This document shows, piece by piece, positions 1,467-23,115 of a stretch of 23,115 bases of DNA. Source of the stretch: a virus. Location of the stretch: the IMG/VR virus record IMGVR_UViG_3300032105_000054, positions 1 through 23,115 of that record, one strand, 5' to 3'. Positions within the stretch are counted from its first letter, which is position 1. Each line of letters opens with the position of its first letter. Below the pieces are notes generated by a model. The model was not told the DNA's origin and did no database searches. It saw only the letters and a list, made by a program, of their open reading frames with translations. Both the position numbers and the translations under genes were made by a program.

Positions 1467-4323
1467 TCATTACTCCGACTAAGTCCCTTAGAGCCCTAGC
1501 AAACCCTTGTCCAATCTTGCGACTCTCACGTAAGATTGAATTAGATTTCTCCATTTTCTCAAAGAATCCACCCGCTGCATTAGCACCCTCGCCGAAGAGG
1601 TTAACCATAGCTTCCAAACCCGGCTTGAGAACGTTGCCCAGGGAAGCTGCGGCCATAAAGACTCGGGTAGAGAATACTGATAAACGACCAGCCAGCGTCG
1701 CGAGCACTTTCTCAGCATCTCCGGCAAAGATGGCACCTTCCTTAAGAATACCATTAAATATGGCCTGTCGTTTCTGTACCTCGGTGAGGCGACCCATGGT
1801 CGTACCAAGTTTGGCGGCATACTCCTTATACATTACAGACAGATTCTTTGTGATCCCCGCATTATCTACCATGATGGAATTTTTTCCGGTAACACTGTTG
1901 GCTACGAAATTGAAGTTAGAGGGGATCGATAAGTCATATGTCTCTGCAAACCCTCGAGACAAAATCCTTACAATCCTGAGGGGCGTTGGGGTACAACTTA
2001 TCGAATTCTTCAAAAGGGATGACAGCCTTCCGGTGAACCTTCCTGTGGCACCCATCACAAAGGGTGAGACCATTTGAGAGTTCATGTCTCCATTCCGGGA
2101 ATTTGGTTTGTGAGAGAATATGATGCGCGTAATTAGTATCTTCGCAAGCTCTACCGCATCTACAACATCGTAACCTATCGCGCTCAAATACTTGTCTCTT
2201 CCATTGCTTATATTCCCTTCGCTGCCGACCGGAGTTTCCCTTCTTAAGACTTTGTCCCTCCTTATATCTGGGATGGTTGGATCCCCTAAACCTGCTGGAG
2301 TATCCATCTGCAGCACATTTCCTTGAACAGTATTTCTTCCCCCTCTCCAATGCTCCAGGGGTAGTAACGAAGACCCCCCTACAAGCCTCACAGACCTTTT
2401 CAACTCTTCCACTATAACGAGGGCTATCTTCGCCAGAGAATTTTCGTCCGAAATTTTCCTTTCTGCAAATTTCAGAGCAAAGTAATCCAAATCCTCTCTT
2501 GACACGTCTTCTAGGAGAGACAAAACTCCTTCCGCAGTTTTCACATCTAACTTCAACGAATTTGCTATGGACCTGACCTGTTTGTCTATACTCCTCATTG
2601 ACCGAATCAACCCAGCATCCTTCACAGAAGCCTTCTCTTCCCCAAGATCTCCTAAGAGAGTCGAGGGAGAGAGAGTTTCCACATCCTTTACAATTCGATC
2701 CTGATTCCATAAACCTTCCTCCTCCTTTTGTTGAATATAAGAAGGAGTAAGATCATTGTCAACCGTTTTTCCATCATGGAATTCACGTCCGTTAGACTTA
2801 TTGAGCATGATGGAGTTTCTAACTCCCTGAAGTTCTTCCTCCACTAACTCTTCGTCCACATAATAAAGAACATCATTTTCGACATCGAGATCTTCCAAGA
2901 ACTTAAACCCACTCTGCGTCAAGAACCGATGATTAGCAGTTGCTTCGATAGTAGTTCCGTTTTCCAGTTCTATTTCAAATACTTCATTCTCCCCGTTATA
3001 ATGTAAGTATTCAGCTTGGGTAACCTCCATTTCCCCTGTCTGTCTATTAACAGATAGTACACAAGGGACAGTGCCTTCATCATGCCACTCTTCAATCGTC
3101 TTGGTTTCTCCCCTTACTGGGTCATAGATTAAGGTGTCATACTTTAAACAGTTCTGGTTCTTAATACCTTGAGTAGCTCCAACAACTGCTTCTCCAAGTC
3201 TCAAAGTCCCCTGTCTATTAAAAGCAGCGGAGTTGGTCAAGGTATCCATCAACATGATAGCTTCCTTCAGACCGAACCCAGCGGAGAGAAGGTTCTTGAG
3301 ACCCGCTGCCGCATCTGCCACATCAACCAACCCCTTAGATGCTAGAGCAAGTGCGGCCTGCTGGGCTGCTTGCATTCCAGCACCTGTATTTATAGCAACA
3401 CTACCAAGACCTTTTAGAGCAGATTCAAGTTTCAGGGATGAACTGAAAGCCTTCTCAAATATACTGACCAAACCACGAGTGGCAAAGGCTAATACCAATA
3501 ACTGATTTCTCAGAGCTCCAAGTCGTCTTCGCAATGCTGGGATAGCACTGGAAGTCAACCGTTGATCTGTCCAAATCTGGAACTCGCGGCCAGCTCTCTT
3601 GACAGCAGCCGTCGTCTGTTTAAATTCACTTTGGATCTTATCTTGACTTTTGGCAGTTCTCTGGGACTGTCTCTCAGCCCTACGAGACGAGTCAGTGAAC
3701 TGCGTCATCTGAGCCTTAGCCAAGACTATTCTATTTCCCAATTTCTTCCATTGAACAATAGACTTCATAGTGCGGCGATCCAGTTGCACCATTCTCTCTT
3801 TACCTATGTTCACCTCTTTGGCCAAAACCCTGAAGGACCTAGCCACCTTATCGAGCTTATCTTTGGCTTTGCCGCTCTGAACCCCAACAGCCCTCTCGGC
3901 CCCAACTAATTGACGTTGAGCTATCCGAGCCTTATCCGTAGCAGCAGAGAACCTCTTCTTAGCCGCTGCACTCTTGTTTTCTTTACCAGTGAGTGCATCC
4001 AAAGCCGCTTGGGCCTTGATATACTCGGCCCTAGCTGCCCCTACGGCCAATGTTTCTTTCTTCTGCTCAGTTGTCAGCGCACGCTGGGCTTCCTTAAGTT
4101 TTGTATGGGCACCCTTTACCCTCTCCAGTGAAGACACATAAGTCTTCAACCTAGCCTTACCCACTCCCAATTCAATCCCATATCCTTTCAAAAATCTCGT
4201 CACTCCACGCAGAGAATTGGAAGTTGCGTCAAGCTTTTGCTTGAGTCCCTTGAGGTTCGAGACGCCTTTCCCTAACGATACCTCTATAAGAAATCTGAAC
4301 CTATTTTCAAGTCTAGGGGGCAA
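1369..4323 (-). CDS. Tape measure protein, N-terminal part with intein (frame breaks near 1465)
   Basis: This is a 984-codon ORF. The start is TTG at 4321-4323, chosen because AGGAGGT lies about nine bases upstream, inside the end of the preceding endonuclease gene. Residues 1-391 are Lys/Arg/Ala-rich helix with a hydrophobic patch near 272-290, typical of tape measure proteins. Residues 392-815 are an intein (Cys392 to Asn815, followed by Ser816). Removing it joins GIKNQN to SIMVDNAGITKN, which reads as a continuous tape-measure-like motif. Residues 816-954 continue as tape measure sequence. From His955 the translation turns Trp/Cys/Ser-rich and ends after 30 residues, while the neighbouring frame continues sensibly to the window edge, so this C-terminus is almost certainly out of frame. 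The gene follows the tail assembly chaperone module, the usual siphovirus position. Confidence 0.88.
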   Translation of the reverse strand: MPPRLENRFRFLIEVSLGKGVSNLKGLKQKLDATSNSLRGVTRFLKGYGIELGVGKARLKTYVSSLERVKGAHTKLKEAQRALTTEQKKETLAVGAARAEYIKAQAALDALTGKENKSAAAKKRFSAATDKARIAQRQLVGAERAVGVQSGKAKDKLDKVARSFRVLAKEVNIGKERMVQLDRRTMKSIVQWKKLGNRIVLAKAQMTQFTDSSRRAERQSQRTAKSQDKIQSEFKQTTAAVKRAGREFQIWTDQRLTSSAIPALRRRLGALRNQLLVLAFATRGLVSIFEKAFSSSLKLESALKGLGSVAINTGAGMQAAQQAALALASKGLVDVADAAAGLKNLLSAGFGLKEAIMLMDTLTNSAAFNRQGTLRLGEAVVGATQGIKNQNCLKYDTLIYDPVRGETKTIEEWHDEGTVPCVLSVNRQTGEMEVTQAEYLHYNGENEVFEIELENGTTIEATANHRFLTQSGFKFLEDLDVENDVLYYVDEELVEEELQGVRNSIMLNKSNGREFHDGKTVDNDLTPSYIQQKEEEGLWNQDRIVKDVETLSPSTLLGDLGEEKASVKDAGLIRSMRSIDKQVRSIANSLKLDVKTAEGVLSLLEDVSREDLDYFALKFAERKISDENSLAKIALVIVEELKRSVRLVGGSSLLPLEHWRGGRNTVQGNVLQMDTPAGLGDPTIPDIRRDKVLRRETPVGSEGNISNGRDKYLSAIGYDVVDAVELAKILITRIIFSHKPNSRNGDMNSQMVSPFVMGATGRFTGRLSSLLKNSISCTPTPLRIVRILSRGFAETYDLSIPSNFNFVANSVTGKNSIMVDNAGITKNLSVMYKEYAAKLGTTMGRLTEVQKRQAIFNGILKEGAIFAGDAEKVLATLAGRLSVFSTRVFMAAASLGNVLKPGLEAMVNLFGEGANAAGGFFEKMEKSNSILRESRKIGQGFARALRDLVGVMSIHWCYSQSYFCHWRLGSMVSSSYQAFHSTAD
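1879..3150 (-). mobile_element. Intein in the tape measure gene, host of a nested HNH gene
   Basis: A 424-codon in-frame insertion runs from a Cys codon (3148-3150) to an Asn codon (1879-1881), followed by Ser. Block A reads CLKYDTLIYDP. Block B has the TANH signature (residues 462-465 of the ORF). Block F/G reads TYDLSIPSNFNFVANS then VTGKN. It aligns without gaps to the usual block ending NFVANGIVVHN, but the block F His is Phe and the penultimate His is Lys, so splicing may be slow or use other residues. The roughly 290 residues between the splicing halves match nothing I recognise in this frame. Most of that stretch overlaps the HNH gene at 1934-2710, which is read in another frame. The extein sequence on each side joins cleanly, which supports the boundaries. 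Confidence 0.85.
1934..2710 (-). CDS. Multi-zinc-finger HNH homing endonuclease nested out of frame in the intein
   Basis: A 258-residue protein lies entirely inside the tape measure intein, on the same strand, its codons starting at the third base of the intein codons. The ATG at 2708-2710 follows an exceptionally strong ribosome binding site (AAGGAGGAGGAAGG), and an in-frame TGA lies about 15 codons upstream, so it is a separate gene rather than a continuation of the intein frame. Cysteine pairs at 7/10, 29/32, 56/59, 78/82, 107/110 and 128/132 suggest three zinc knuckles of CxxC...CxxC or CxxC...CxxxC type. The C-terminal HNH domain has Cys183/Cys185/Cys189, His196-His197, Asn213, then Cys218, Cys221, His222 and His226. 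By family knowledge it would cut intein-less alleles and drive homing. That it recognises the tape measure gene is inferred from its location. Confidence 0.9.
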   Translation of the reverse strand: MESGSNCKGCGNSLSLDSLRRSWGREGFCEGCWVDSVNEEYRQTGQVHSKFVEVRCENCGRSFVSPRRRVKRGFGLLCSEICRKENFGRKFSGEDSPRYSGRVEKVCEACRGVFVTTPGALERGKKYCSRKCAADGYSSRFRGSNHPRYKEGQSLKKGNSGRQRREYKQWKRQVFERDRLRCCRCGRACEDTNYAHHILSQTKFPEWRHELSNGLTLCDGCHRKVHRKAVIPFEEFDKLYPNAPQDCKDFVSRVCRDI

Positions 4324-4324
4324 C

Positions 4325-4981
4325 TTAAGTTACCTCCTCACTGAGAATCAAGTCGAAAATTTTTCTTTTTCTTTCCAAAAAAACTGTAGCATCTCCATAA
4401 ATATAATCGGCGAATCTTTTGATGTCCTCTCGTTTACCGATCTGAAATCTGTGGACTTGAGCTCTAGGTCTTATGTCGTGGATATATCCTAACCCGCCAA
4501 GTTTGTCCTGTATAAACTTTAACACCCTTAAAGTGCCAGTAATAGAAATTCTCTTCTGCCTTGGCCTTGACCGGCGGATAAAGACACTACCGTCCCCATC
4601 GAAATAACCTCTGATCCAATGATTAACTAAAGAATTAGGAACTCCTATCGGAGGTTCTAGAATCAAAGACTTCCTAGGAACGACTCCTTTACTGATTAAA
4701 TCCAGGTACAATTTTTCAGAAGTAATACTAATTTTTCCGCTAAGATGTCTCTTACCATTTGACCTAGTTTCTCTGTCATGAACAGGGTGATTAGCCTCAA
4801 GGTGCTTTTTGAAAACCTCTAATACATTTATATCCTTGATATCTTGAGATAGATGTACTCTGGCCCGGTTTCTATCCAAATAACCGTCGGCTGCAAGAAA
4901 GCCAACCCAATAAGCTTTCACTCCGATGTCTATGGTCTCGAAGAAATTCTCATTAAGACTATATTTTCTGACCCCACTCAT
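4325..4981 (-). CDS. LAGLIDADG homing endonuclease, free-standing
   Basis: A 218-residue protein with two LAGLIDADG motifs, WVGFLAADGYL (residues 25-35, acidic Asp32) and IRGYFDGDGSV (123-133, acidic Asp130). Two motifs in one chain indicate a monomeric enzyme that makes a double-strand break at an asymmetric site. The ATG overlaps the stop of the preceding gene (TAATG at 4979-4983), and the tape measure TTG follows one base after its stop, so the gene sits exactly between two tail genes. Its 3' end supplies the tape measure ribosome binding site. It is a close paralogue of the genes at 16536-17171 and 22831-23115: all share the phrase RGYFDGDGS and a FLERK- or YLERK-like ending. No splicing motifs are present, so it is a free-standing gene rather than an intein. 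Its target is unknown. Confidence 0.93.
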   Translation of the reverse strand: MSGVRKYSLNENFFETIDIGVKAYWVGFLAADGYLDRNRARVHLSQDIKDINVLEVFKKHLEANHPVHDRETRSNGKRHLSGKISITSEKLYLDLISKGVVPRKSLILEPPIGVPNSLVNHWIRGYFDGDGSVFIRRSRPRQKRISITGTLRVLKFIQDKLGGLGYIHDIRPRAQVHRFQIGKREDIKRFADYIYGDATVFLERKRKIFDLILSEEVT

Positions 4982-9735: not shown

Positions 9736-10074
9736 TTAGCTCCTTAAGTGCCTATTGAATTTGAATAGCATGGATTCAGGGATGTAAGGTTCAATTCTCT
9801 CCCGAAAATGAACAGAGCCGTGATCAAGGGTTAATCTTGCATTCTTTCTTCTTGAATTTAAACTTCCATCTCCCAAGACTGTACCTACTAGTAAATCCCG
9901 CTGTTCTTCGATAGGGGTAAAATAACTGTAATCATGTGGACTATTAATTCCCAGAGCCCTAAGCTGTTGTCTGGCCCAACTACTACTATAGCCCATGACT
10001 CGGCTTATCGCCTGGTTAGATAAACCCTGGTCATGCAGGCGCTCTACTTTACTAACTTGTATAATCTCGTTCAT
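9736..10074 (-). pseudogene. Remnant homing endonuclease: helix-turn-helix plus one LAGLIDADG motif
   Basis: A 112-residue ORF with an N-terminal helix-turn-helix (residues about 15-42, LSNQAISRVMGYSSSWARQQ) and a LAGLIDADG motif at 61-72 (LLVGTVLGDGSL) followed by RLTLDHGSVHFRERIEPYI. Members of this class usually have 150 or more residues after the first motif, including a second motif. Here the protein stops 40 residues later, so the second half is missing. Its last codons contain the AAGGAG that serves the downstream tail terminator-like gene. It sits alone between two structural genes, as a decayed mobile insertion would. It could still make a small DNA-binding protein through the helix-turn-helix. 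Confidence 0.7.
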
Positions 10075-10154: not shown

Positions 10155-10943
10155 TCAGACTAAATCCCCTTTCGCTGCAGGCCATTCCAAGTCCCTGTAA
10201 TCCGTAATATCTCTCCCATACTCGTCAACTTCATAATCAACTTGGACTGGGTCAAGGTCCCTAGCAACCATAGCCTTACCCGGGATAGTAATAATCCCTT
10301 GTTGAAGAGCCCTGACCAAACGATCGTAGAGTCGTGTGTACCTTTGAGAAGTAGCTGAAGCATCAGGGACTTCTTCGGTAAAAATAGTATCTAGGATGTT
10401 TGTCGCTGCCAATAAGGCACTGAGATGGACAATCATCCCCGGATAGTTATGAACCCGTATGTAATGGACATCTTCTTTAGCAAATACCCCATTCCAGAGT
10501 TGACTAGGAATGGTCAGGAAGGTGTCCGTAGTTGTGAAAGAGGCAGACTTAGTTCCGCTCCCCTGGTCACCCGTCAGTTCACTCTCTACATCAAAAGCAG
10601 TATCAGAGGTAAACTCAAGTCTATATACCTGAGAAAAAAGAAGTTCAGAAGCCTCAAGCACTGTAAGCTTGTTAGCCCCTGTCGCATCCTGCAAAAGTAA
10701 AGTCCCAGCTCCTTGATTATAAATAGGAGATGGAGGAGCAGGCTGATCAACCCTAGGTGTCTCAGTCAAGTCAGTACCATAATGAAGCTCAAGCTGACCT
10801 CTAAGCTGAGAATCATTCCTGAGAATGAATGCTCTTATCTGCTGAGGATCCAAGACATTGAACTCTTTAGCTTCATCATCAAAGAGCTGCGGAATTAAAT
10901 CCACGATATCTAGATATGTTGAAATAGCTTCAAGAACGGGCAT
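10155..10943 (-). CDS. Putative head-tail connector/adaptor protein
   Basis: A 262-residue protein, ATG at 10943 behind GGAG. The N-terminus (residues 1-60) is helical, with YLDIVDLIPQLFDDEAKEF and a QQIRAFILRNDSQL helix. The middle (about 75-165) is a beta-rich insertion (LLLQDATGANKLTVLEASEL). The C-terminal half returns to helix (LSALLAATNILDTIF, YTRLYDRLVRALQQGIITI). A helical core that covers the start and the end and is split by a beta domain resembles adaptor proteins that bind below the portal. Position after the capsid module and before the tail terminator agrees. No motif is diagnostic, so the role is an inference. Confidence 0.55.
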   Translation of the reverse strand: MPVLEAISTYLDIVDLIPQLFDDEAKEFNVLDPQQIRAFILRNDSQLRGQLELHYGTDLTETPRVDQPAPPSPIYNQGAGTLLLQDATGANKLTVLEASELLFSQVYRLEFTSDTAFDVESELTGDQGSGTKSASFTTTDTFLTIPSQLWNGVFAKEDVHYIRVHNYPGMIVHLSALLAATNILDTIFTEEVPDASATSQRYTRLYDRLVRALQQGIITIPGKAMVARDLDPVQVDYEVDEYGRDITDYRDLEWPAAKGDLV

Positions 10944-11074
10944 CTATTTCTCCATCGTTCAATTGTAATATGTTTCAATACCTCACTCGACCAGAAGACA
11001 GGGCGCTACAGCTCATAGTGCTCGTCTCCATTTGTGTTATAATATAAATTATAAAATAGCAGCCTCACAACACT

Positions 11075-11386
11075 TTAGAGATTAGAAAACACCTCAAAAG
11101 ACCCGATATCTGATTTCCAATCTCCAGACGTCAAGGCTACTCGAGCTTGTATCTCCCAAATCCCTACTTCATCAAGATCATTTGCAACAGTAACATATTT
11201 GATCTTCCCATCTACTCCATCAGTATTAAACACAGCAGCTTTGGTTTTTATACTACCCTTAGGAGGCTTAAGGATAATCTGCTTCGTAATTGTAGCGGAA
11301 GAGACATCCACCGCCCCCGTGCCGTCCTTGAATGTAACGAGAAATACAGTACCAATATCACCCTCATGGATCTCATTAGCGCTCAT
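11075..11386 (-). CDS. Small beta-rich virion protein, possibly Ig-like/baseplate-type domain
   Basis: A 103-residue protein starting MSANEIHEGDIGTVFLVTF. It contains DGTGAVDVSSATITKQIIL, then FNTDGVDGKIKYVTV and VGIWEIQARVAL, ending in GSFEVFSNL. This succession of strands, with a DG-GK-Y hairpin and a GxWxxxxxV strand, is typical of small immunoglobulin-like domains on phage virions, and recalls the N-terminal domain of BppU-type baseplate proteins. The start ATG overlaps the TGA of the preceding small ORF (ATGA), so the two are translationally coupled. The exact role is unknown. Confidence 0.7.
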   Translation of the reverse strand: MSANEIHEGDIGTVFLVTFKDGTGAVDVSSATITKQIILKPPKGSIKTKAAVFNTDGVDGKIKYVTVANDLDEVGIWEIQARVALTSGDWKSDIGSFEVFSNL

Positions 11387-11511
11387 AATTCTAACTCGTG
11401 TTCACTAGACTGATCAATATGCTTGTCCAAGGCAACCGTGGGTTTAATGAAAAGGTCAAGCTCTACCTGCCGGTTTATTTGCAAGTCAAACTCTATCTGA
11501 TCAGCGCTCAA
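11383..11511 (-). CDS. Small 42-residue ORF with a 10-residue repeat, unknown
   Basis: I read this ORF directly: it starts with TTG at 11509-11511, seven bases after GGAG, and its TGA overlaps the ATG of the next gene. The product begins MSADQIEFDLQINR and contains two successive units, QIEFDLQINR and QVELDLFIKP, then VALDKHID. The DNA shows the repeat as related segments at 11455-11469 and 11485-11499, 30 bases apart. It resembles nothing I know. Coupling on its downstream side and a good ribosome binding site make it a likely gene despite its size. Confidence 0.5.
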   Translation of the reverse strand: MSADQIEFDLQINRQVELDLFIKPTVALDKHIDQSSEHELEL

Positions 11512-11531
11512 GATCAAACTCCACTAGTTGC

Positions 11532-11732
11532 TCAATAACTGTATGGGACGGTCAGAAAAGTGGCCCCACCATCTATTGAAAAGTATAGGTCTTGAGTCTT
11601 ATGTCGGTTATATAACCGAATGGCCCGGCTCTTCTTCTTGAAAGTTTTCACGGTGATTGCTGTTGTACCTACTGAGCCAACAGCATGGCCATAAATACCA
11701 CCAACGGCTTGAGCCTGAGATAGCGCCCCCAT
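11532..11732 (-). CDS. Small structural protein of unknown function
   Basis: A 66-residue protein with a strong ribosome binding site (AAGGAGG, ATG at 11732). The N-terminus is Gly/Ala-rich (GALSQAQAVGGIYGHAVGSVG) and the C-terminus is beta-prone: SRAIRLYNRHKTQDLYFSID followed by GGATFLTVP. The phrase of a strand, a short loop and then SxDGGATFLxVP occurs in small virion accessory proteins. It lies between the capsid and connector genes, so a head accessory role is likely but not shown. Confidence 0.7.
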   Translation of the reverse strand: MGALSQAQAVGGIYGHAVGSVGTTAITVKTFKKKSRAIRLYNRHKTQDLYFSIDGGATFLTVPYSY

Positions 11733-11947
11733 AAATTTATTCCTCCTTAATTTTGACCTTTCATCGTCCTACCTGACTTCACCTGGTCCTTAATAAAACG
11801 TGACGTCCGGTACAAGAAGTAGCCGGAATATTTCCCTTTCAATCTCACATTTACTATAGGCTAAAACATCCACTGTATTCACTTTAACGCTCGGATACCG
11901 AGCCGACAAAAAGTCGAGTCGGTATCCGAATACGTAGAGAGGATAGG
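11733..11947. other. Gap between small head genes, with one strong hairpin
   Basis: No convincing gene is visible. The segment holds the ribosome binding site of the 66-residue ORF at its low end and a strong inverted repeat at 11892-11928. One minus-strand frame is open for about 56 codons but lacks a start with a ribosome binding site. Confidence 0.6.
11892..11928. other. Imperfect 14-bp stem-loop, terminator-like without a U tract
   Basis: CGGATACCGA (11892-11901) pairs perfectly with TCGGTATCCG (11919-11928). A further four base pairs (CGAC/GTCG) close a loop of five adenines after a two-base internal mismatch. On the minus strand the sequence after the stem is AGCGTTAAAG, so there is no run of U and a classical intrinsic terminator is unlikely. 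It could be an RNA-stability or processing element downstream of the capsid transcript, or a protein-binding site. Confidence 0.6.
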
Positions 11948-12049
11948 TTAGGATTCAGCAGCCTCTGAGCCCACCACTTCATCCTCTTCACTAAGGTCAT
12001 CATAGGACTCCCCTTCGAAGACAGCTTCTAGCTCTTCAGAGACTTCGGG
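11948..12049 (-). other. Open extension after an in-frame amber codon: acidic tail
   Basis: After the TAG at 12050-12052 the same frame stays open for 33 codons to a TAA at 11948-11950. The would-be extension begins PEVSEELEAVFEGESYDDLS and is strongly acidic, protein-like sequence that would suit the C-terminal tail of the preceding small gene. Either a nonsense mutation has truncated that gene, or some ribosomes read through the amber codon. Confidence 0.55.
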
Positions 12050-12247
12050 CTATGGTTCTACAAGTGCGTCGTCAAGATTAATAGCGTCAACTACACCCTC
12101 ACCATATGCTTCATCCAGTTCTTCTTGGGTGAATGGAATGGGATCCCCACCTATCTGGGGATGAAATACCAGGCGGCCGTTCCGATAGGTACCCATACGC
12201 TCTCGCTTGGTAAAGTATGTACGTACTGGTGCTTTCTTCTTTGCCAT
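12050..12247 (-). CDS. Small protein after the capsid gene, ends at an amber codon
   Basis: A 65-residue protein starting MAKKKAPVRTYFTKRERMGT. The N-terminal 30 residues are basic and the rest acidic (PFTQEELDEAYGEGVVDA, ending DDALVEP). It lies directly downstream of the major capsid gene, where head accessory or cement proteins are common. I do not recognise the family. The stop is TAG, and the same frame continues with 33 acidic codons to a TAA, so a full-length form would be about 99 residues. The ribosome binding site is weak compared with its neighbours (AAAGG about 12 bases upstream), and a stem-loop lies just before it at 12279-12302. Confidence 0.7.
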   Translation of the reverse strand: MAKKKAPVRTYFTKRERMGTYRNGRLVFHPQIGGDPIPFTQEELDEAYGEGVVDAINLDDALVEP

Positions 12248-15582: not shown

Positions 15583-16266
15583 TTAATTAAGGTCTTTAAT
15601 TATCGATTCCTCATCAGTAATTATCCTAAGATCCGCATCATGTTTACTCAATAAGCCATATTTAGCTCTGTCTCTGGCTTTGACTTCGTCAAGATTTCCA
15701 TAACCTATTTCTTTATAATAATGAGGCCCATTGAATTCTACTGCGAGATTAATCTGAGGATAAAACAGATCAACTCTCATAGAATAACGAGAGAGTGGAG
15801 ATTTCAACCAAGGCCAAGTATATTCTCTGAGACCCGTTTCACCATATTCAGTATCCAAAGCAGGCTTTATCCTATCTATGACAGTCTCAGTCTTGTAACA
15901 GTGGCCTTCATATTCCAGAAGCCTCTTTAGAAACCTGACCGACAAATCATGAGCCAACCTTATATCACAATATGTACAGCCGGCCTCAATTTCAGCCTTA
16001 ACGACCAGATAGAGAGATTCATTGGCTTTTATCTCGGCCTCTAGTTTTTCTTTTTTAATACGAGCTTTATACCTGGCTTTAGCTCTCTGATGAGAGGCCC
16101 GCTTTGCCATTCTTCTCAGTTTTTTCTTTCCAGGAGACAAGGCTTTAGCTCTAGCCCTATTCTCAGCATTCCTGCAAATCTTACAGCGTGGATGTCGACC
16201 AGCAAGAGGATGAACGTGAAATTCCTCCAAAGGCTTCGTCTCACCACACTCAAGACAGGTTTTCAT
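15583..16266 (-). CDS. Zinc-finger plus Vsr-like (PD-(D/E)xK) nuclease, putative homing endonuclease
   Basis: A 227-residue protein with two parts. Residues 1-35 form a CxxC zinc finger (Cys4, Cys7, Cys28, Cys31; MKTCLECGETKPLEEF), then a very basic helical linker to about residue 75, and another CxxC pair at 97/100. The C-terminal part has the restriction-endonuclease core RVDLFYPQINLAVEFNGPHY (Asp166, Glu177, His182), followed by ARDRAKYGLLSKHDADLRII. That pattern belongs to Vsr-like/DUF559-type nucleases, some of which act as free-standing homing endonucleases in phages. Its ATG overlaps the TGA of the preceding HNH gene (ATGA). It forms a three-gene nuclease cluster with 16263-16520 and 16536-17171. 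Target and activity are not known. Confidence 0.75.
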   Translation of the reverse strand: MKTCLECGETKPLEEFHVHPLAGRHPRCKICRNAENRARAKALSPGKKKLRRMAKRASHQRAKARYKARIKKEKLEAEIKANESLYLVVKAEIEAGCTYCDIRLAHDLSVRFLKRLLEYEGHCYKTETVIDRIKPALDTEYGETGLREYTWPWLKSPLSRYSMRVDLFYPQINLAVEFNGPHYYKEIGYGNLDEVKARDRAKYGLLSKHDADLRIITDEESIIKDLN

Positions 16267-16520
16267 TTCTTCTTTTTTCTTCCATGGGCCCCCCCTTTAC
16301 TAGGGTGGGCACGGTTGTGATCCGCTGGGCTCATCTTCTTAAAATTGCTAGGTCTATTATCACTTTTTTTCTTGTTTTTGTGATGTACGATTTGACCAGG
16401 CTTCGCCTTGGTCACACGACGCCTAAAAGATTTACTTCTCCCACCTTTCCATCTAGGATTACTCTTTCCAAATTGACTGCGACCCTTCCTACCATGCACT
16501 CTAGGCTTACCCTCTGCCAC
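16263..16520 (-). CDS. Small basic HNH endonuclease-like protein
   Basis: An 85-residue, very basic protein. The start is GTG at 16518-16520, with AGGAGG about nine bases upstream. An N-terminal segment (GRSQFGKSNPRWKGGRSKSF) resembles a NUMOD3-like DNA-binding stretch. Residues 44-71 hold IVHHKNKKKSDNRPSNFKKM and then SPADHNRAH, the HNH layout of His-His, Asn and His seen in phage HNH endonucleases. The C-terminus is Lys-rich. At 85 residues it is short, but the active-site layout is complete. It lies in the mobile nuclease cluster and its stop overlaps the start of the next gene. Confidence 0.7.
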   Translation of the reverse strand: MAEGKPRVHGRKGRSQFGKSNPRWKGGRSKSFRRRVTKAKPGQIVHHKNKKKSDNRPSNFKKMSPADHNRAHPSKGGAHGRKKKK

Positions 16521-16535
16521 TAGACATCACCTCCT

Positions 16536-17171
16536 TTAATAACTTTGAAAGACCAACTTCTTTCGTTCTAAGTAAACACCACTTGACCCATACATGAACT
16601 CATAGATCTTCCTTGGAGAGAAGTGAATATGAAATTTATTCCCCTCGCTTGATATCCAACCAAAACCCAGAATACTGTGTATCCATTCAAGAATTTTAAG
16701 AGAAGCAGAAGTAATCTTAGCCCTAAGTCTTCCACTGTAGTTATGGAAATACACACTTCCGTCTCCATCAAAATAACCCCGAATAAAATGCAGATTCAAC
16801 CTAGAAGGAATCCCTGTAGGAGGCCCCAGAGAAAAAGTCTTCCTAGGCGTAATACCGTGAGACTCCAAATCCCTACACATCTTAGCTGAAGAGATAGTCA
16901 AACGGTAACCACCATTAGGTCCCCTACTTTTCCAACGCCTGAGAGGCCCCGAGGACCCCAAGGTAGAGTTCAATAAGATCAAGTGAGATCTATCCTTAGC
17001 AGAAAGGTTTAGAGTGAGTCTTCTTCCACCACCATGTTTTGGAGACCTTAGCCCACCGTCTGCAGCTATGAAACCCAGCCAATAAGCCTTTTCCGGACTA
17101 TCTATCCTCTCAAAGAAATCTTCTCGGTCTAAAGAGTATTTTCTCTCTGGTCCAGTCCTACTCTTTGCCAT
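16536..17171 (-). CDS. LAGLIDADG homing endonuclease, free-standing
   Basis: A 211-residue paralogue of the gene at 4325-4981. The two motifs are YWLGFIAADGGL (residues 30-41, Asp39) and FIRGYFDGDGSV (129-140, Asp137), so it should act as a monomer. The N-terminus (KYSLDREDFFERIDSPEKAY) matches the start of its paralogue (KYSLNENFFETIDIGVKAYW). The C-terminus, with YLERKKLVFQSY, matches the same family ending. The ATG overlaps the TAA of the preceding tiny basic gene (TAATG), the same kind of junction as at 4981. It is inserted between the tiny basic genes and the small HNH gene. Confidence 0.92.
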   Translation of the reverse strand: MAKSRTGPERKYSLDREDFFERIDSPEKAYWLGFIAADGGLRSPKHGGGRRLTLNLSAKDRSHLILLNSTLGSSGPLRRWKSRGPNGGYRLTISSAKMCRDLESHGITPRKTFSLGPPTGIPSRLNLHFIRGYFDGDGSVYFHNYSGRLRAKITSASLKILEWIHSILGFGWISSEGNKFHIHFSPRKIYEFMYGSSGVYLERKKLVFQSY

Positions 17172-18025: not shown

Positions 18026-19784
18026 TGCCGTTCTCCTCTTCTTCCCCATCCCCATCCATTTCGGCCTCATCAGCCAGCCTCATAGCCCTCTCTTTTGCCA
18101 TCCTATCCATTTCTTTCTCCCAGTTGTACCCCGCTCTAGCAGACAACGTGGCCTTGCTGGCGATACCCATTTCATCATGTATTTTCATTACCTCAGCCTG
18201 TTCCTTCATATCGTCAGTCATGATAGCGGGGAACTCTATGAAAATGGGAACCCTTTCTGTAGATACCCTCTTCATAGTTACACTAGAATCCATCTTGGCT
18301 CTAATTTGCCCCCAAATCTTCTCCTGATCGTCTCCCCTCAGAACAGCTTCATTTACCATAGTCTTAATGGCTTCAATATTCTTTATAGAGTAAGTTGGGA
18401 CCTTGACTGTCATCTTCAATGTGCCAGCTTCTATAGCAGCCTTAATGACCACCCGGTACATCTCCTCAAACACCTCAACAAAGAATTCCTGCTGCGCCCT
18501 AATGAACTGACTGAACGGAGTATCGGCCTTGCGGATTGAGGCATAAACTTGCTGATCTGTTCTCTGGACTAAGATATGAATCGGAAGTTTTGTACCAGCT
18601 CCTATATTATACAGAATAGCTAATCCATCCTCTTTAGCATCATCTGATCCAAGCTTGGGAGCCTCGATCCTATACGAAACATTCTCTGTCTCTATCAACA
18701 TAACCCCACCGCGTGGCGAACGACGTTGACGAGTTGTATCTTCTGTAGTCCTTCCTCCTTTGATCTCTTTGATCCAGACTACCTTGGCTCTCTCGTGGTT
18801 CAAACGGATTCTATCCATCAACCAATCTTCAAAGAACTTCAGATGCCGCATGACTGGTTGAAGAGGAACTCTACCCCTTAATTCAACATCAATTCCAGTT
18901 TTAACATGTTGGACCCAGGGTGCCTTGTTTTGTATAGCCTCGTCCTTCTGACTCGTCCGATTCTTCTGCTTCTTAATGACCTTAGCGGGACTTTTGACAG
19001 GTTCAACATCCTGCATATACTGCACAAGATCAGGGACCCATCTACTCACCTCCCGAGCCTGGTCTGACCCAGTAGGAGTATAACTATATTGCCAGAAATA
19101 ACCTTCTCGAGTCTCAATATCTTCTTTATCAGTCCGAATATTCTGGATTTCTAGAGGGCGTATACGGCGGATAGAGACGTCGCCCGTCTTTTGGTCAATG
19201 TAATAAGCAATGAACAGTTCACCCTCTATATTGAACATCTTAACTAATTGTTTCTCACGTCTGATCATCTTATTCTTGTTACGGAATGAATTGATGACCT
19301 CCATAATTTTAGGATTATCGACGTGGACCTTGACCCCACCCCCCACCGTGTAACTAGTCCAATTATCTATGATGCTGGTACAAAGAGGATCTACGAAATA
19401 CTTATGCAGAGCAGCAGCCTGCATAGTGTGTAGTTCTTCTAATGCCTGTCCATCGTGCTCGGTAAAATAGACTCCAGAGATGTAGGTCCCAACAAAGTGC
19501 TCTATAACAGTCCTCAGTTGACCTGTGAGCTCTTTGAATTTCCCAGCGATTTTAACTTTTGGTTTCTGAGTAGGCTCTTCGGTTTCATAGAGATAAGAAT
19601 AGTCCTGTGGCTCAGCCTGCAACTTACCATTGCCGCCTGAACCATGCCACCTTTTCTCATCTGCAGCACCTTCAACTGCAGCTTTCCCTGCCTGCGCCTG
19701 AGCATCTTCTATACTTATCAGAGAGCCAGGCCTAAAGATTCTGACGAGTAGACCAGGAACTTTAGGCTTTATATCACTTACCAT
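18012..19784 (-). CDS. Portal protein
   Basis: A 590-residue protein with ATG at 19784, overlapping the terminase stop by seven bases. It has the features of a phage portal: a long N-terminal arm, a helix region (QAAALHKYFVDPLCTSIIDN), the strand pair TVGGGVKVHVDNP, NIEGELFIAYYIDQKTGDVS with IRRIRPLEIQNI, and the wing/stem helices (FEDWLMDRIRLNHERAKVVW). The conserved GAGTKLPIHILVQRTDQQVY segment and a FSQFIRAQQEFFVEVFEEMY helix complete the clip/stem region. It should form the dodecameric DNA entry channel at one capsid vertex. The C-terminus is acidic and low complexity (DEAEMDGDGEEEENGNEDS). It lies directly after the terminase gene, the usual order. Confidence 0.9.
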   Translation of the reverse strand: MVSDIKPKVPGLLVRIFRPGSLISIEDAQAQAGKAAVEGAADEKRWHGSGGNGKLQAEPQDYSYLYETEEPTQKPKVKIAGKFKELTGQLRTVIEHFVGTYISGVYFTEHDGQALEELHTMQAAALHKYFVDPLCTSIIDNWTSYTVGGGVKVHVDNPKIMEVINSFRNKNKMIRREKQLVKMFNIEGELFIAYYIDQKTGDVSIRRIRPLEIQNIRTDKEDIETREGYFWQYSYTPTGSDQAREVSRWVPDLVQYMQDVEPVKSPAKVIKKQKNRTSQKDEAIQNKAPWVQHVKTGIDVELRGRVPLQPVMRHLKFFEDWLMDRIRLNHERAKVVWIKEIKGGRTTEDTTRQRRSPRGGVMLIETENVSYRIEAPKLGSDDAKEDGLAILYNIGAGTKLPIHILVQRTDQQVYASIRKADTPFSQFIRAQQEFFVEVFEEMYRVVIKAAIEAGTLKMTVKVPTYSIKNIEAIKTMVNEAVLRGDDQEKIWGQIRAKMDSSVTMKRVSTERVPIFIEFPAIMTDDMKEQAEVMKIHDEMGIASKATLSARAGYNWEKEMDRMAKERAMRLADEAEMDGDGEEEENGNEDS

Positions 19785-21775
19785 GGGTCAGGCCTCTCTG
19801 TTTGCTCATTTTCCTGAGGTTCGTAATATTCATCATCATCAAAATCAACTCTTTCATAGAAATCGTCCTGTACTTGGGCCTGAGCTTCATCGTCTTCCAT
19901 ATACTCAAACTCATTATTTATTAAATTATAAACCCCACCCGCCATGCTCTGGAGTAAATCGATGGAGCCCCGTGGCTTATGGTCCACTTTATTCTTTTTA
20001 TAGTCGATCTCTGCACCCCTAGCTTCAATCTTCCAATGCTCATGCCGAGGCAGTAATAATCTATCATCGTAAAGAACATCTTTCAGCGCCTGCATAGGCC
20101 CTAAAATCTGACCTTCGGTAGAGTGCCTCAGTAGCCCACTCCCATCAGGAGCTCTCTTATCTAAGATAACCTTTGTAGCCGTTCTGTCAATAGAAAGTCT
20201 AGCAATCTTGTAGCCTTGAGAGCGTAGAATTTGAATTGAATCAATTGAATTATGGACAAATATTCCAGCGCTAAGGGCGAAGTTATGATAAACGGGTACT
20301 TCTATGTCATAGACGTCCTGAAGAGGTCCCTCCTCTATTTTTACAACCTTGTGATTATAATAAACCCTCTTTCCCTGTTCTTCATCAAACCTCCACTTCT
20401 TACCTCGGATCCCAGACTGACGATCCACCCCCACCCTCTTAGCCCTATATTCCGGATCTTCCCATTTCTTCCTAACGATCTCTGCGATAGACTCCCTGGT
20501 GGACAAACTATGATTTTTACCTTTATTAAACCTACCGTTGGTATTACCCATCATAGACTTAGAACGCTTTTCACAGGCCTCCGGGGATCTTGCAGATTCC
20601 ACTGCTCTTTTGTTCATTGCCAGTAATTTCTTCCTCTCAGAGCCTCTCCACCGAGTACGCATGGCCCTACTCTTCTTTTCCCTAGCCAATCTCCTTAATT
20701 CAGAATCCGACTGAACAGCAGCCCAATAAGAGAGAAACCCAAAACTAGGAGAGCCCTTATGAACCTCGAGATGTTCCTCTACAGTTAACATTTGGAGATT
20801 CTCCGGAGTGTTGTTAAAGGGATTTCGGTCAACATGGTGTACGTTATAACCCGGTGGAGCTTTACCTTTTACCATTTGATGAATATATTCCCAGGACTCC
20901 TTCTGAGGTTGATATATCTTCTTATGTCTTCTTAATTTACTAGCCTTGCTAGCCTTCAACTGCTTAGTAAGGAATGGCATTAAAGATTGACCGGGACTCA
21001 AGGATCTAGCCGGAACATATTCTCCATTCCTGAGCATGAACGGATGATTAGGAGTGCACTGAATAATCTCTCCATTGTCTAGATGAATCTTAAGCGTCCT
21101 CGCTTTACGTCCTGTCTTTCTTACGTTCTTAGCCTTAGCTGGAACAATCTTCTCTCCGTCAAAAGCGTATACCCAAAATTCCTTATCTCTTCCGAACTCA
21201 TCAACCAAGTCTCTAATTGGAACATCTCTTCCGTCTAATAAAGCTATTTTAGTATCCCCCACCAAACATTGAAACCCGTCAAAAGTGATAAGAGCCAAAT
21301 AGAAACCTCTGCGACTTATTTCATAAATCAGCTCTCTAATCCGACTTAACAAGATTTCCTCACCCCGTACTGACTTAATACGACCTAGAAAATCAAATTT
21401 TACGGAAGGTACTCTGACCGAGTGACCGATCATCTTCTTATCATCAAACTCAATCTCTTCTCTGTCTTCGAAACCAGGAGAGTGACACATAGAGATACCA
21501 ACGGCATCTTTAGTGAGTCCCAAGTCGACATGCATAAACCTTCTATGTACATCGTCGACACAGGACCTAAAGTCTTCATCAAATTCTAGAGTTTGATCAT
21601 TAAATGGATTTTTAAACCCCTTCTCAAACGCCTCTATTATCTTATCATGTCTCTTGAAAAAAGGCCTGGTAGACTCAGTGGAGATACACGCAACGTCGCG
21701 AATAAAATTTTCGGGATCCTTCAGGAACAGGGCCTTCAGCTCCAGAGGAACAGTGATGGTATGGCGCTTAGTCAA
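19778..21775 (-). CDS. Terminase large subunit, nuclease half, interrupted by an intein
   Basis: A 665-residue ORF that becomes 325 residues after intein removal. Extein residues 1-60 (ITVPLELKALFLKDPENFIR) look like the linker that follows the ATPase domain in large terminases. The nuclease core has the acidic residues Asp84 (MHVDLGLTKDAVG), Asp166 (ALITFDGFQ) and Asp606 (PRGSIDLLQSMAGGVYNL). No Walker A, Walker B or adenine-binding motif is present, so the ATPase half must be a separate gene further upstream or absent. The only available start is TTG at 21773-21775, overlapping the lysozyme stop, because a TAG lies five codons upstream. The terminase cleaves concatemeric DNA and drives packaging through the portal, which is the next gene. 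The C-terminus is acidic. Confidence 0.88.
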   Translation of the reverse strand: MTKRHTITVPLELKALFLKDPENFIRDVACISTESTRPFFKRHDKIIEAFEKGFKNPFNDQTLEFDEDFRSCVDDVHRRFMHVDLGLTKDAVGISMCHSPGFEDREEIEFDDKKMIGHSVRVPSVKFDFLGRIKSVRGEEILLSRIRELIYEISRRGFYLALITFDGFQCLVGDTKIALLDGRDVPIRDLVDEFGRDKEFWVYAFDGEKIVPAKAKNVRKTGRKARTLKIHLDNGEIIQCTPNHPFMLRNGEYVPARSLSPGQSLMPFLTKQLKASKASKLRRHKKIYQPQKESWEYIHQMVKGKAPPGYNVHHVDRNPFNNTPENLQMLTVEEHLEVHKGSPSFGFLSYWAAVQSDSELRRLAREKKSRAMRTRWRGSERKKLLAMNKRAVESARSPEACEKRSKSMMGNTNGRFNKGKNHSLSTRESIAEIVRKKWEDPEYRAKRVGVDRQSGIRGKKWRFDEEQGKRVYYNHKVVKIEEGPLQDVYDIEVPVYHNFALSAGIFVHNSIDSIQILRSQGYKIARLSIDRTATKVILDKRAPDGSGLLRHSTEGQILGPMQALKDVLYDDRLLLPRHEHWKIEARGAEIDYKKNKVDHKPRGSIDLLQSMAGGVYNLINNEFEYMEDDEAQAQVQDDFYERVDFDDDEYYEPQENEQTERPDPW
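20249..21268 (-). mobile_element. Intein with HNH endonuclease in the terminase nuclease domain
   Basis: A 340-residue in-frame insertion from Cys170 (21266-21268) to Asn509 (20249-20251), followed by Ser510. Block A is CLVGDTKIALLDG, block B has TPNH at 241-244, and block F/G reads VYDIEVPVYHNFALSAGIFVHN split before Ser, with both usual histidines present. The splicing halves are interrupted by an HNH domain in the same frame: NVHHVDRNPFNNTPENLQML then HLEVH (residues 311-339), followed by a NUMOD3-like stretch (GNTNGRFNKGKNHSLSTRES). It sits inside the FDGFQ-S motif next to the second active-site Asp, so the terminase cannot be active until the intein has spliced out. Confidence 0.93.
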
Positions 21776-22342: not shown

Positions 22343-22831
22343 CTACACCCACCCCCCAGAATACTTCATTATTCCCAGCAGTATTTCGACATCCCCCAAT
22401 GCAGAGTGACGTGTACCCATTCTAACTCCTAAGTATTCAGCGACAGTATGCATTTTGTGATTTTCCAAATACGGGTAACATTCTCTCATGTCTGGAAGGT
22501 AGTCATGATAAGACAGATGGCTGAAGCGCTGATCATTGACCACTAAAAAACGTTTATCAAAATCAACGTTGTATCCAACAATCAGCCCTGCTTTACAGAA
22601 AGTATACAATTCATCCCGAATATCTTTGAAATCCGGAGCATCTTTTAAAACCTTATCATCCAATCCAGTCAGTTCTACAATATGAGGAGGGAGAGAACGA
22701 TGAGGATTAACTAAGGATGAGAAGGTCTCCACAATCCTCCCTCGATTAATCCTGACTACTGCGATCTCAATGATAGCATCATCAGTCGGACTAAAACCGG
22801 ATGTTTCAATATCCAAGATTAACATAGACAT
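22343..22831 (-). CDS. DnaQ-like (DEDDh) 3'-5' exonuclease
   Basis: A 162-residue protein with all three exonuclease motifs. Exo I is LILDIETSGF (Asp7, Glu9), Exo II is VGYNVDFDKRFL (Asp92) and Exo III is TRHSALGDVEILL (His142, Asp147), so it is of the DEDDh type. This family removes nucleotides from 3' ends, for proofreading or RNA/DNA turnover. The ATG overlaps the TGA of the upstream endonuclease (TGATG at 22829-22833) and the gene ends with TAG. A replication-type enzyme between lysis and terminase genes is a little out of place and may reflect rearrangement with the homing endonuclease beside it. Confidence 0.88.
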   Translation of the reverse strand: MSMLILDIETSGFSPTDDAIIEIAVVRINRGRIVETFSSLVNPHRSLPPHIVELTGLDDKVLKDAPDFKDIRDELYTFCKAGLIVGYNVDFDKRFLVVNDQRFSHLSYHDYLPDMRECYPYLENHKMHTVAEYLGVRMGTRHSALGDVEILLGIMKYSGGWV

Positions 22832-23115
22832 CAGAACCTTATCTTTTTTCTTTCCAAGAAAACAGTAGCATCCTTGTAAACGTATTGCTTAAACTCTTCA
22901 ACGTCTCGTTGAGCACCAATGATAAGACTAAATGCCTTAGAATTAGGACGGGGACGAGTATTTCCAACCCATCCTAACCTATTTTTAATAAATTCTAAAA
23001 CTTCCTTGGTACTAGTTATTTGGACTCTCTTATATTTATATCTGCGTTCTCCATACCTAGAGATACTGCCATCTCCATCGAAATATCCTCGGATCCAATG
23101 GTGAATTAAAGAGTC
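22831..23115 (-). CDS. LAGLIDADG homing endonuclease, 3' end only (partial)
   Basis: Read directly from the right edge: 94 codons and a TGA at 22831-22833. The visible part starts DSLIHHWIRGYFDGDGS, with the second LAGLIDADG motif (IRGYFDGDGSI), and ends KDATVFLERKKIRF. It matches the C-terminal half of the gene at 4325-4981 closely, including NHWIRGYFDGDGSV and GDATVFLERK, so the two are recent relatives. The 5' part is outside the window. It immediately precedes the exonuclease gene with a one-base overlap. Confidence 0.92.
   Translation of the reverse strand, partial: DSLIHHWIRGYFDGDGSISRYGERRYKYKRVQITSTKEVLEFIKNRLGWVGNTRPRPNSKAFSLIIGAQRDVEEFKQYVYKDATVFLERKKIRF

Follow-up and report, generated by a model that had tools for sequence, protein, structure and literature searches.

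The usual picture of an intein is a single polypeptide serving both splicing and homing, and in those of the ordinary kind, with an HNH or LAGLIDADG domain in frame, the two HINT halves flank the homing endonuclease at a conserved insertion site. Group I introns with endonuclease ORFs also encode a free endonuclease within a self-removing element. Dassa et al. (2009) reportedly described fractured genes with split inteins, in which a free-standing endonuclease gene lies between the halves. The most similar hidden endonuclease is that of ShiLan, where an out-of-frame zinc-finger HNH gene lies within an insertion in a phage DNA methylase gene (Arsenault, Gosselin, Gogarten 2025, Genes; PMC11855218). 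The ShiLan insertion has no splicing motifs and is thought to be retained in the protein, and its HNH gene has no detectable ribosome binding site (PMC11855218). In the open-licence literature on inteins with an out-of-frame endonuclease we found only the ShiLan work and one genome note, the latter concerning an out-of-frame HNH in a methylase.

The locus considered here lies in a 23,115-base IMG/VR virus record (the window, i.e. the whole stretch of DNA that was analysed), which carries tailed-phage structural genes on the minus strand. We think it likely that its tape measure gene harbors a mobile intein in which the homing endonuclease, rather than being an intein domain, has a separate and complete gene nested out of frame. 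As in ShiLan, the HNH gene is out of frame within an insertion that is open in the host gene frame, the distribution is patchy, and the relative frame is the same, as judged from the published positions (GTG at base 18 of the insertion; PMC11855218). In contrast to ShiLan, the insertion is a recognisable intein with a splicing domain, so that an out-of-frame HNH gene in an open insertion is found together with splicing elements, and the HNH gene has a strong Shine-Dalgarno sequence. Ordinary inteins, e.g. a second one in the window (19778-21775) and intein 1 of the phage contig L036, differ in that their endonuclease shares polypeptide and frame with the intein. The split inteins of fractured genes resemble the locus in having an endonuclease gene between intein halves that is translated on its own, but there the intein frame is divided between two genes and splicing is in trans, whereas here it runs without interruption. 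Group I introns differ in that removal would here occur at the protein level, and no intron family was matched. Such an intein, hiding a nested endonuclease gene, therefore appears to be undescribed, although an earlier report outside the open-licence papers is possible.

The tape measure gene and its intein

The tape measure gene runs in frame from 4323 to 1369 on the minus strand and is interrupted by one intein of 424 aa (1879..3150, minus strand; C1 to N424, then Ser+1). Its limits were set by motifs (C1 after GIKNQN, N424 before Ser) and by the empty sites of relatives. The N-extein (3151..4323, minus strand) has the C-terminal end ...GATQGIKNQN, which is kept in 33 relatives, and the C-extein (1475..1878, minus strand) starts with SIMVDNAGITKNL... 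and has a one-base frame slip near 1460-1480. An uninterrupted GIKNQN-SIM was present at the exact junction in 33/33 related IMG/VR tape measure genes, and a degenerate search for empty junctions returned 30 matches, every one of them on contigs of the same set of relatives. Pfam Intein_splicing was matched in the tape measure frame (E 5.8e-9), as two halves split by a long middle, and the tape measure frame remains open across the HNH ORF, which bears out the first-pass annotation in that the splicing frame of the intein is open from end to end. The hallmarks of class 1 inteins are present, namely C1, T71-A-N-H74 (the block B TxxH), N424 and Ser+1, together with a conserved insertion site that has intein-free alleles (33 empty sites), and by these motifs 1879-3150 is a class 1-like intein.

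Two auxiliary residues are missing from the window copy, the block F His and the penultimate His, which are replaced by NFNF and TGKN (vs xHN), while the intein of L040, a divergent IMG/VR phage, has both (DHN in block F and a penultimate VTHN). Both residues vary in some inteins, and their loss therefore weakens the case for efficient splicing but not that for homology; splicing of the window intein may accordingly be slow or lost. Taken with the slip near 1460-1480, the two absent His residues raise the prospect that this copy may be ageing or may carry an assembly error. The slip may itself represent a sequencing error, a real lesion or a frameshift, and given its presence the tape measure gene as assembled in the window may be broken or misassembled, unlike that of L040, whose tape measure frame is continuous. 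Past the slip, downstream of the intein, the tape measure protein runs on in ORF 3-1421.

In a structure predicted from a 3-row alignment, only the splicing ends of the intein were modelled, and these ends match the HINT fold of the DnaB and RecA mini-inteins (Foldseek E 1.7e-7). The overlap region of the intein-frame model has a pLDDT of about 25, and hence no fold can be claimed for the intein linker. The intein is not split in the manner of fractured genes, a single open frame running from C1 to the terminal Asn, which is N424 in the window and N428 in L040. At gathering scores, no Rfam family, the group I intron core included, was matched in the window, and an intron as the explanation for the insertion was rejected on this ground.

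The nested HNH gene and its counterpart in a divergent phage

Within the intein, and in the -1 frame relative to it, lies a zinc-ribbon HNH endonuclease gene of 258 aa (1934..2710, minus strand), recognised by profile matches and by its homologue in L040. The ORF is as the first-pass annotation had described it, with correct coordinates, CxxC pairs and an HNH core in its translation. Database searches matched both translations to the expected families, the intein to Intein_splicing as given above and the nested ORF to phrog_1271, an HNH endonuclease family (E 2e-16), while its Pfam HNH match (E 0.0011) was slightly under the gathering score. Residues C182, C185, H196, H197, N213, C218, C221, H222 and H226 of the HNH core are invariant among four relatives. 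The GVE2 HNH structure 5h0m matches the nested HNH by sequence (E 1.7e-4) and superposes on the HNH model at 1.7 A over 68 columns with a non-significant Foldseek E of 0.39; no Foldseek match to the HNH model fell below E 0.001. Single-sequence searches of IMG/VR with the HNH protein and with the intein N-half confirmed no close relative.

The start of the gene is preceded by the Shine-Dalgarno sequence AAGGAGGAGGAAGG (2714..2727, minus strand), which reads KEEEG in the intein frame. A ribosome binding site had been claimed at this position from the first reading of the sequence, and AAGGAGGAGGAAGG indeed ranks as the best Shine-Dalgarno among the 71 possible starts in the window intein (P ~0.0025 vs random positions). 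The 3' end of the gene is likewise double-coding (1933..1980, minus strand), with the block F strand LRIVRILSRGFAETYD in one frame and the HNH C-terminus and its TGA in the other, an arrangement that recurs in L040. The TGA falls within the Y-D codons of block F, and the final HNH codons therefore also encode the conserved intein strand LRIVRILSRG.

L040 was found by a search of IMG/VR for the motif GIKNQNC. Its intein of 428 aa occupies exactly the same tape measure site, between GIKNQN and S, and nests a homologous HNH gene in the same relative frame, with the intein frame open. As this locus was found by its motif and not by openness, its open intein frame was not selected for. The window and L040 share 33% identity over 206 aa between HNH proteins (E 5e-31) and 30% identity over 455 aa between whole inteins (E 9e-51). 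In both loci the HNH stop lies inside the block F (Y/F)-D-L codons, these being the F-D codons in L040, and the Shine-Dalgarno of the L040 HNH is modest, ranking 13th among the 66 starts of that intein. Apart from L040, no locus matched the junction pattern HN-[S]IM.DN, and a scan of genome contigs for GIKNQNC gave chance matches only. Two independent examples of the nested layout were found, the window and L040. A phage-record match to tape measure plus intein, LR745208, was rejected because its intein is of the ordinary in-frame kind and lies in a helicase-like gene.

The first-pass annotation had named two grounds on which the nesting would have to be abandoned, compensating indels that had displaced an in-frame HNH domain and a closed intein frame in relatives. 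Both fail on L040, which has the same frame relation and an open intein frame; with the same site, the same frame and an open intein frame in a second phage, two compensating indel errors are not credible. The nested arrangement is thus confirmed as real and not a sequencing artefact.

Constraint on two frames and competing readings

In a stop test, the HNH protein was held fixed while its codons were redrawn, or the gene's own codons were shuffled, and stops in the intein frame were counted. The intein frame of the window has 0 stops vs 5.6 expected (P = 8.5e-4, or 0.046 with the own-codon shuffle), and that of L040 has 0 stops vs 14.7 expected (P < 5e-5, or 2e-4 with the codon shuffle); none of the control genes of the window was open in the same test. 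The chance figure of about 4 in a million that had originally been attached to the overlap is consequently too strong for the window gene alone (P = 8.5e-4, with 5.6 stops expected), because the intein frame is naturally stop-poor for this HNH protein, and the case against chance rests on the window and L040 together.

A comparison of the two loci over the overlap, of the kind first proposed for relatives, bore out constraint on both frames, at z ~5 to 7 for the intein frame and z 14 for the HNH frame when the intein frame was held fixed. Intein-frame similarity was greater than under synonymous recoding (z 7.2; codon shuffles, z 5.9), in contrast to four control gene segments at the same offset from the same phage pair (z -0.8 to 1.6), and the excess persisted when the simulations were forced to an open frame (z 5.0). 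Fourfold third positions of the HNH gene, which are second positions of the intein frame, were identical at 12/19 sites vs 26/93 in the controls (Fisher P 0.006). The unused third frame was also in excess (z 2.0-3.6), and part of the signal may therefore derive from slow synonymous change in the HNH genes. The intein-frame signal lies mainly opposite HNH residues 53-104 and 183-208 and at both ends; the residues most conserved against L040 are those opposite HNH residues 53-104 (2398..2553, minus strand; z 3.8 and 3.3), and no intein-frame conservation was found in the middle of the overlap (HNH residues 105-182). Since stops are absent and the intein-frame similarity is in excess without a like excess in the controls, both frames are probably under purifying selection.

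The most likely course of events is the following, in which splicing, internal initiation and cleavage of empty sites are predicted from the sequence. Translation of the tape measure in its own frame would produce one long precursor, in which the two terminal intein halves would fold as a HINT splicing domain and the overlap region would form a long linker, and excision of the intein would restore ...GATQGIKNQN-SIMVDNAG..., protecting the tail protein. Internal initiation at the Shine-Dalgarno and the ATG at 2710 would yield a free 258-aa zinc-ribbon HNH protein. This protein would cut or nick tape measure genes that lack the intein, at the best-conserved part of the gene, and the intein would be copied in during repair of the cut or nicked empty allele. 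A free endonuclease, homing apart from splicing and separate expression levels for the two would all be compatible with the anatomy. A stronger and more doubtful reading, which we offer tentatively, is that the nested-intein lineage has true dual coding, with a free HNH in one frame and, in the other, a conserved helical linker that is functional in its own right, perhaps by assisting splicing or by keeping the two halves of the intein associated.

An alternative view is that an unrelated, free-standing HNH gene landed in the intein linker and has its homing target elsewhere. The overlap would then have no function in the intein frame, which would be kept open only by the need to make the essential tail protein. 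The family is indeed widespread as a free-standing gene, and both the unconserved stretch opposite HNH residues 105-182 and the low-confidence model of the overlap (pLDDT about 25) fit this view; however, the same nesting at the same site in L040, at 33% HNH identity, implies long co-inheritance, and several stretches of intein-frame residues are conserved beyond mere openness, which leaves a chance landing improbable. The endonuclease could instead be in effect part of the intein polypeptide, if the HNH were fused to the intein N-half by -1 ribosomal frameshifting. Purine-rich Shine-Dalgarno-like stretches can promote frameshifting, one lies upstream of the window HNH, and in each locus the open HNH frame extends a few codons upstream of its ATG; but 7 to 14 codons upstream that frame is already closed, the ATG is correctly spaced behind the Shine-Dalgarno, and no canonical -1 slippery heptamer was seen by eye near either HNH start, so that we hold such a fusion to be very unlikely. 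Least credible of all is an artefact, i.e. an HNH once in frame and displaced by two compensating assembly indels, or a decayed and unexpressed copy. The frame slip near 1460-1480 and the missing block F and penultimate His of the window speak for it, yet L040 independently has the same frame relation, compensating errors would not place the HNH stop at the same point of block F in both loci, and both frames are constrained.

On the preferred reading, that of a mobile intein with a nested and separately initiated out-of-frame endonuclease, splicing and homing could be expressed at different levels. It would also suggest a route from a contiguous intein to a split intein with a free endonuclease gene, since a single stop arising in the intein frame would produce such an arrangement, and would tie the hidden methylase HNH insertions, which have no known splicing route, to a setting in which removal is expected. 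The locus further provides a conserved case of long same-strand gene overlap in which both frames are testable, and dual coding, if true, would mean that homing and splicing evolve in the same bases but are controlled separately.

Possible movement of the intein, and other endonuclease genes

The N-half of the window intein is 81% identical over 97 aa to an intein of L036 (IMGVR_UViG_3300009285_008404), whereas the tape measure N-flanks are only 33% identical, which suggests horizontal movement of the intein. At the same tape measure site, L036 carries two directly adjoining inteins (10519-12240). Intein 1 has an in-frame HNH of the same family as the nested HNH and directly precedes the window-type intein 2, such that its +1 residue would be Cys1 of intein 2. 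One site is thus used by two kinds of intein, with the endonuclease in or out of frame. A stop cuts the window-type intein 2 short; next come tRNA-Lys, tRNA-Ile and tRNA-Ala, and past these tRNAs, at the contig end, lies a recombinase-like ORF on the opposite strand; the contig is possibly a chimera.

The window is unusually rich in homing endonuclease-like genes. Its second, ordinary intein (19778-21775), beside the portal gene in a large terminase candidate, has an in-frame HNH_3 and a weak NUMOD3 match. LAGLIDADG_3 was matched at 4325-4981 and 16536-17171, with a similar candidate ORF at 22831-23115, and a small HNH (16263-16520) and a short HTH/LAGLIDADG_2-like ORF with weak matches (9736-10074) are also present. 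Outside the window, Escherichia phage BUCT618 (OM735461.1, 36396-38258; L053:1998-2603) has a 202-codon zinc-ribbon HNH frame in an open methyltransferase gene, an apparent further case of the ShiLan type with the same offset; BUCT618 is not named in the main text of the ShiLan paper (PMC11855218). In Mycobacterium phage Techage (L055), an HNH match lies on the strand opposite the annotated hypothetical gene 59, which sits between two pieces annotated as DNA methylase.
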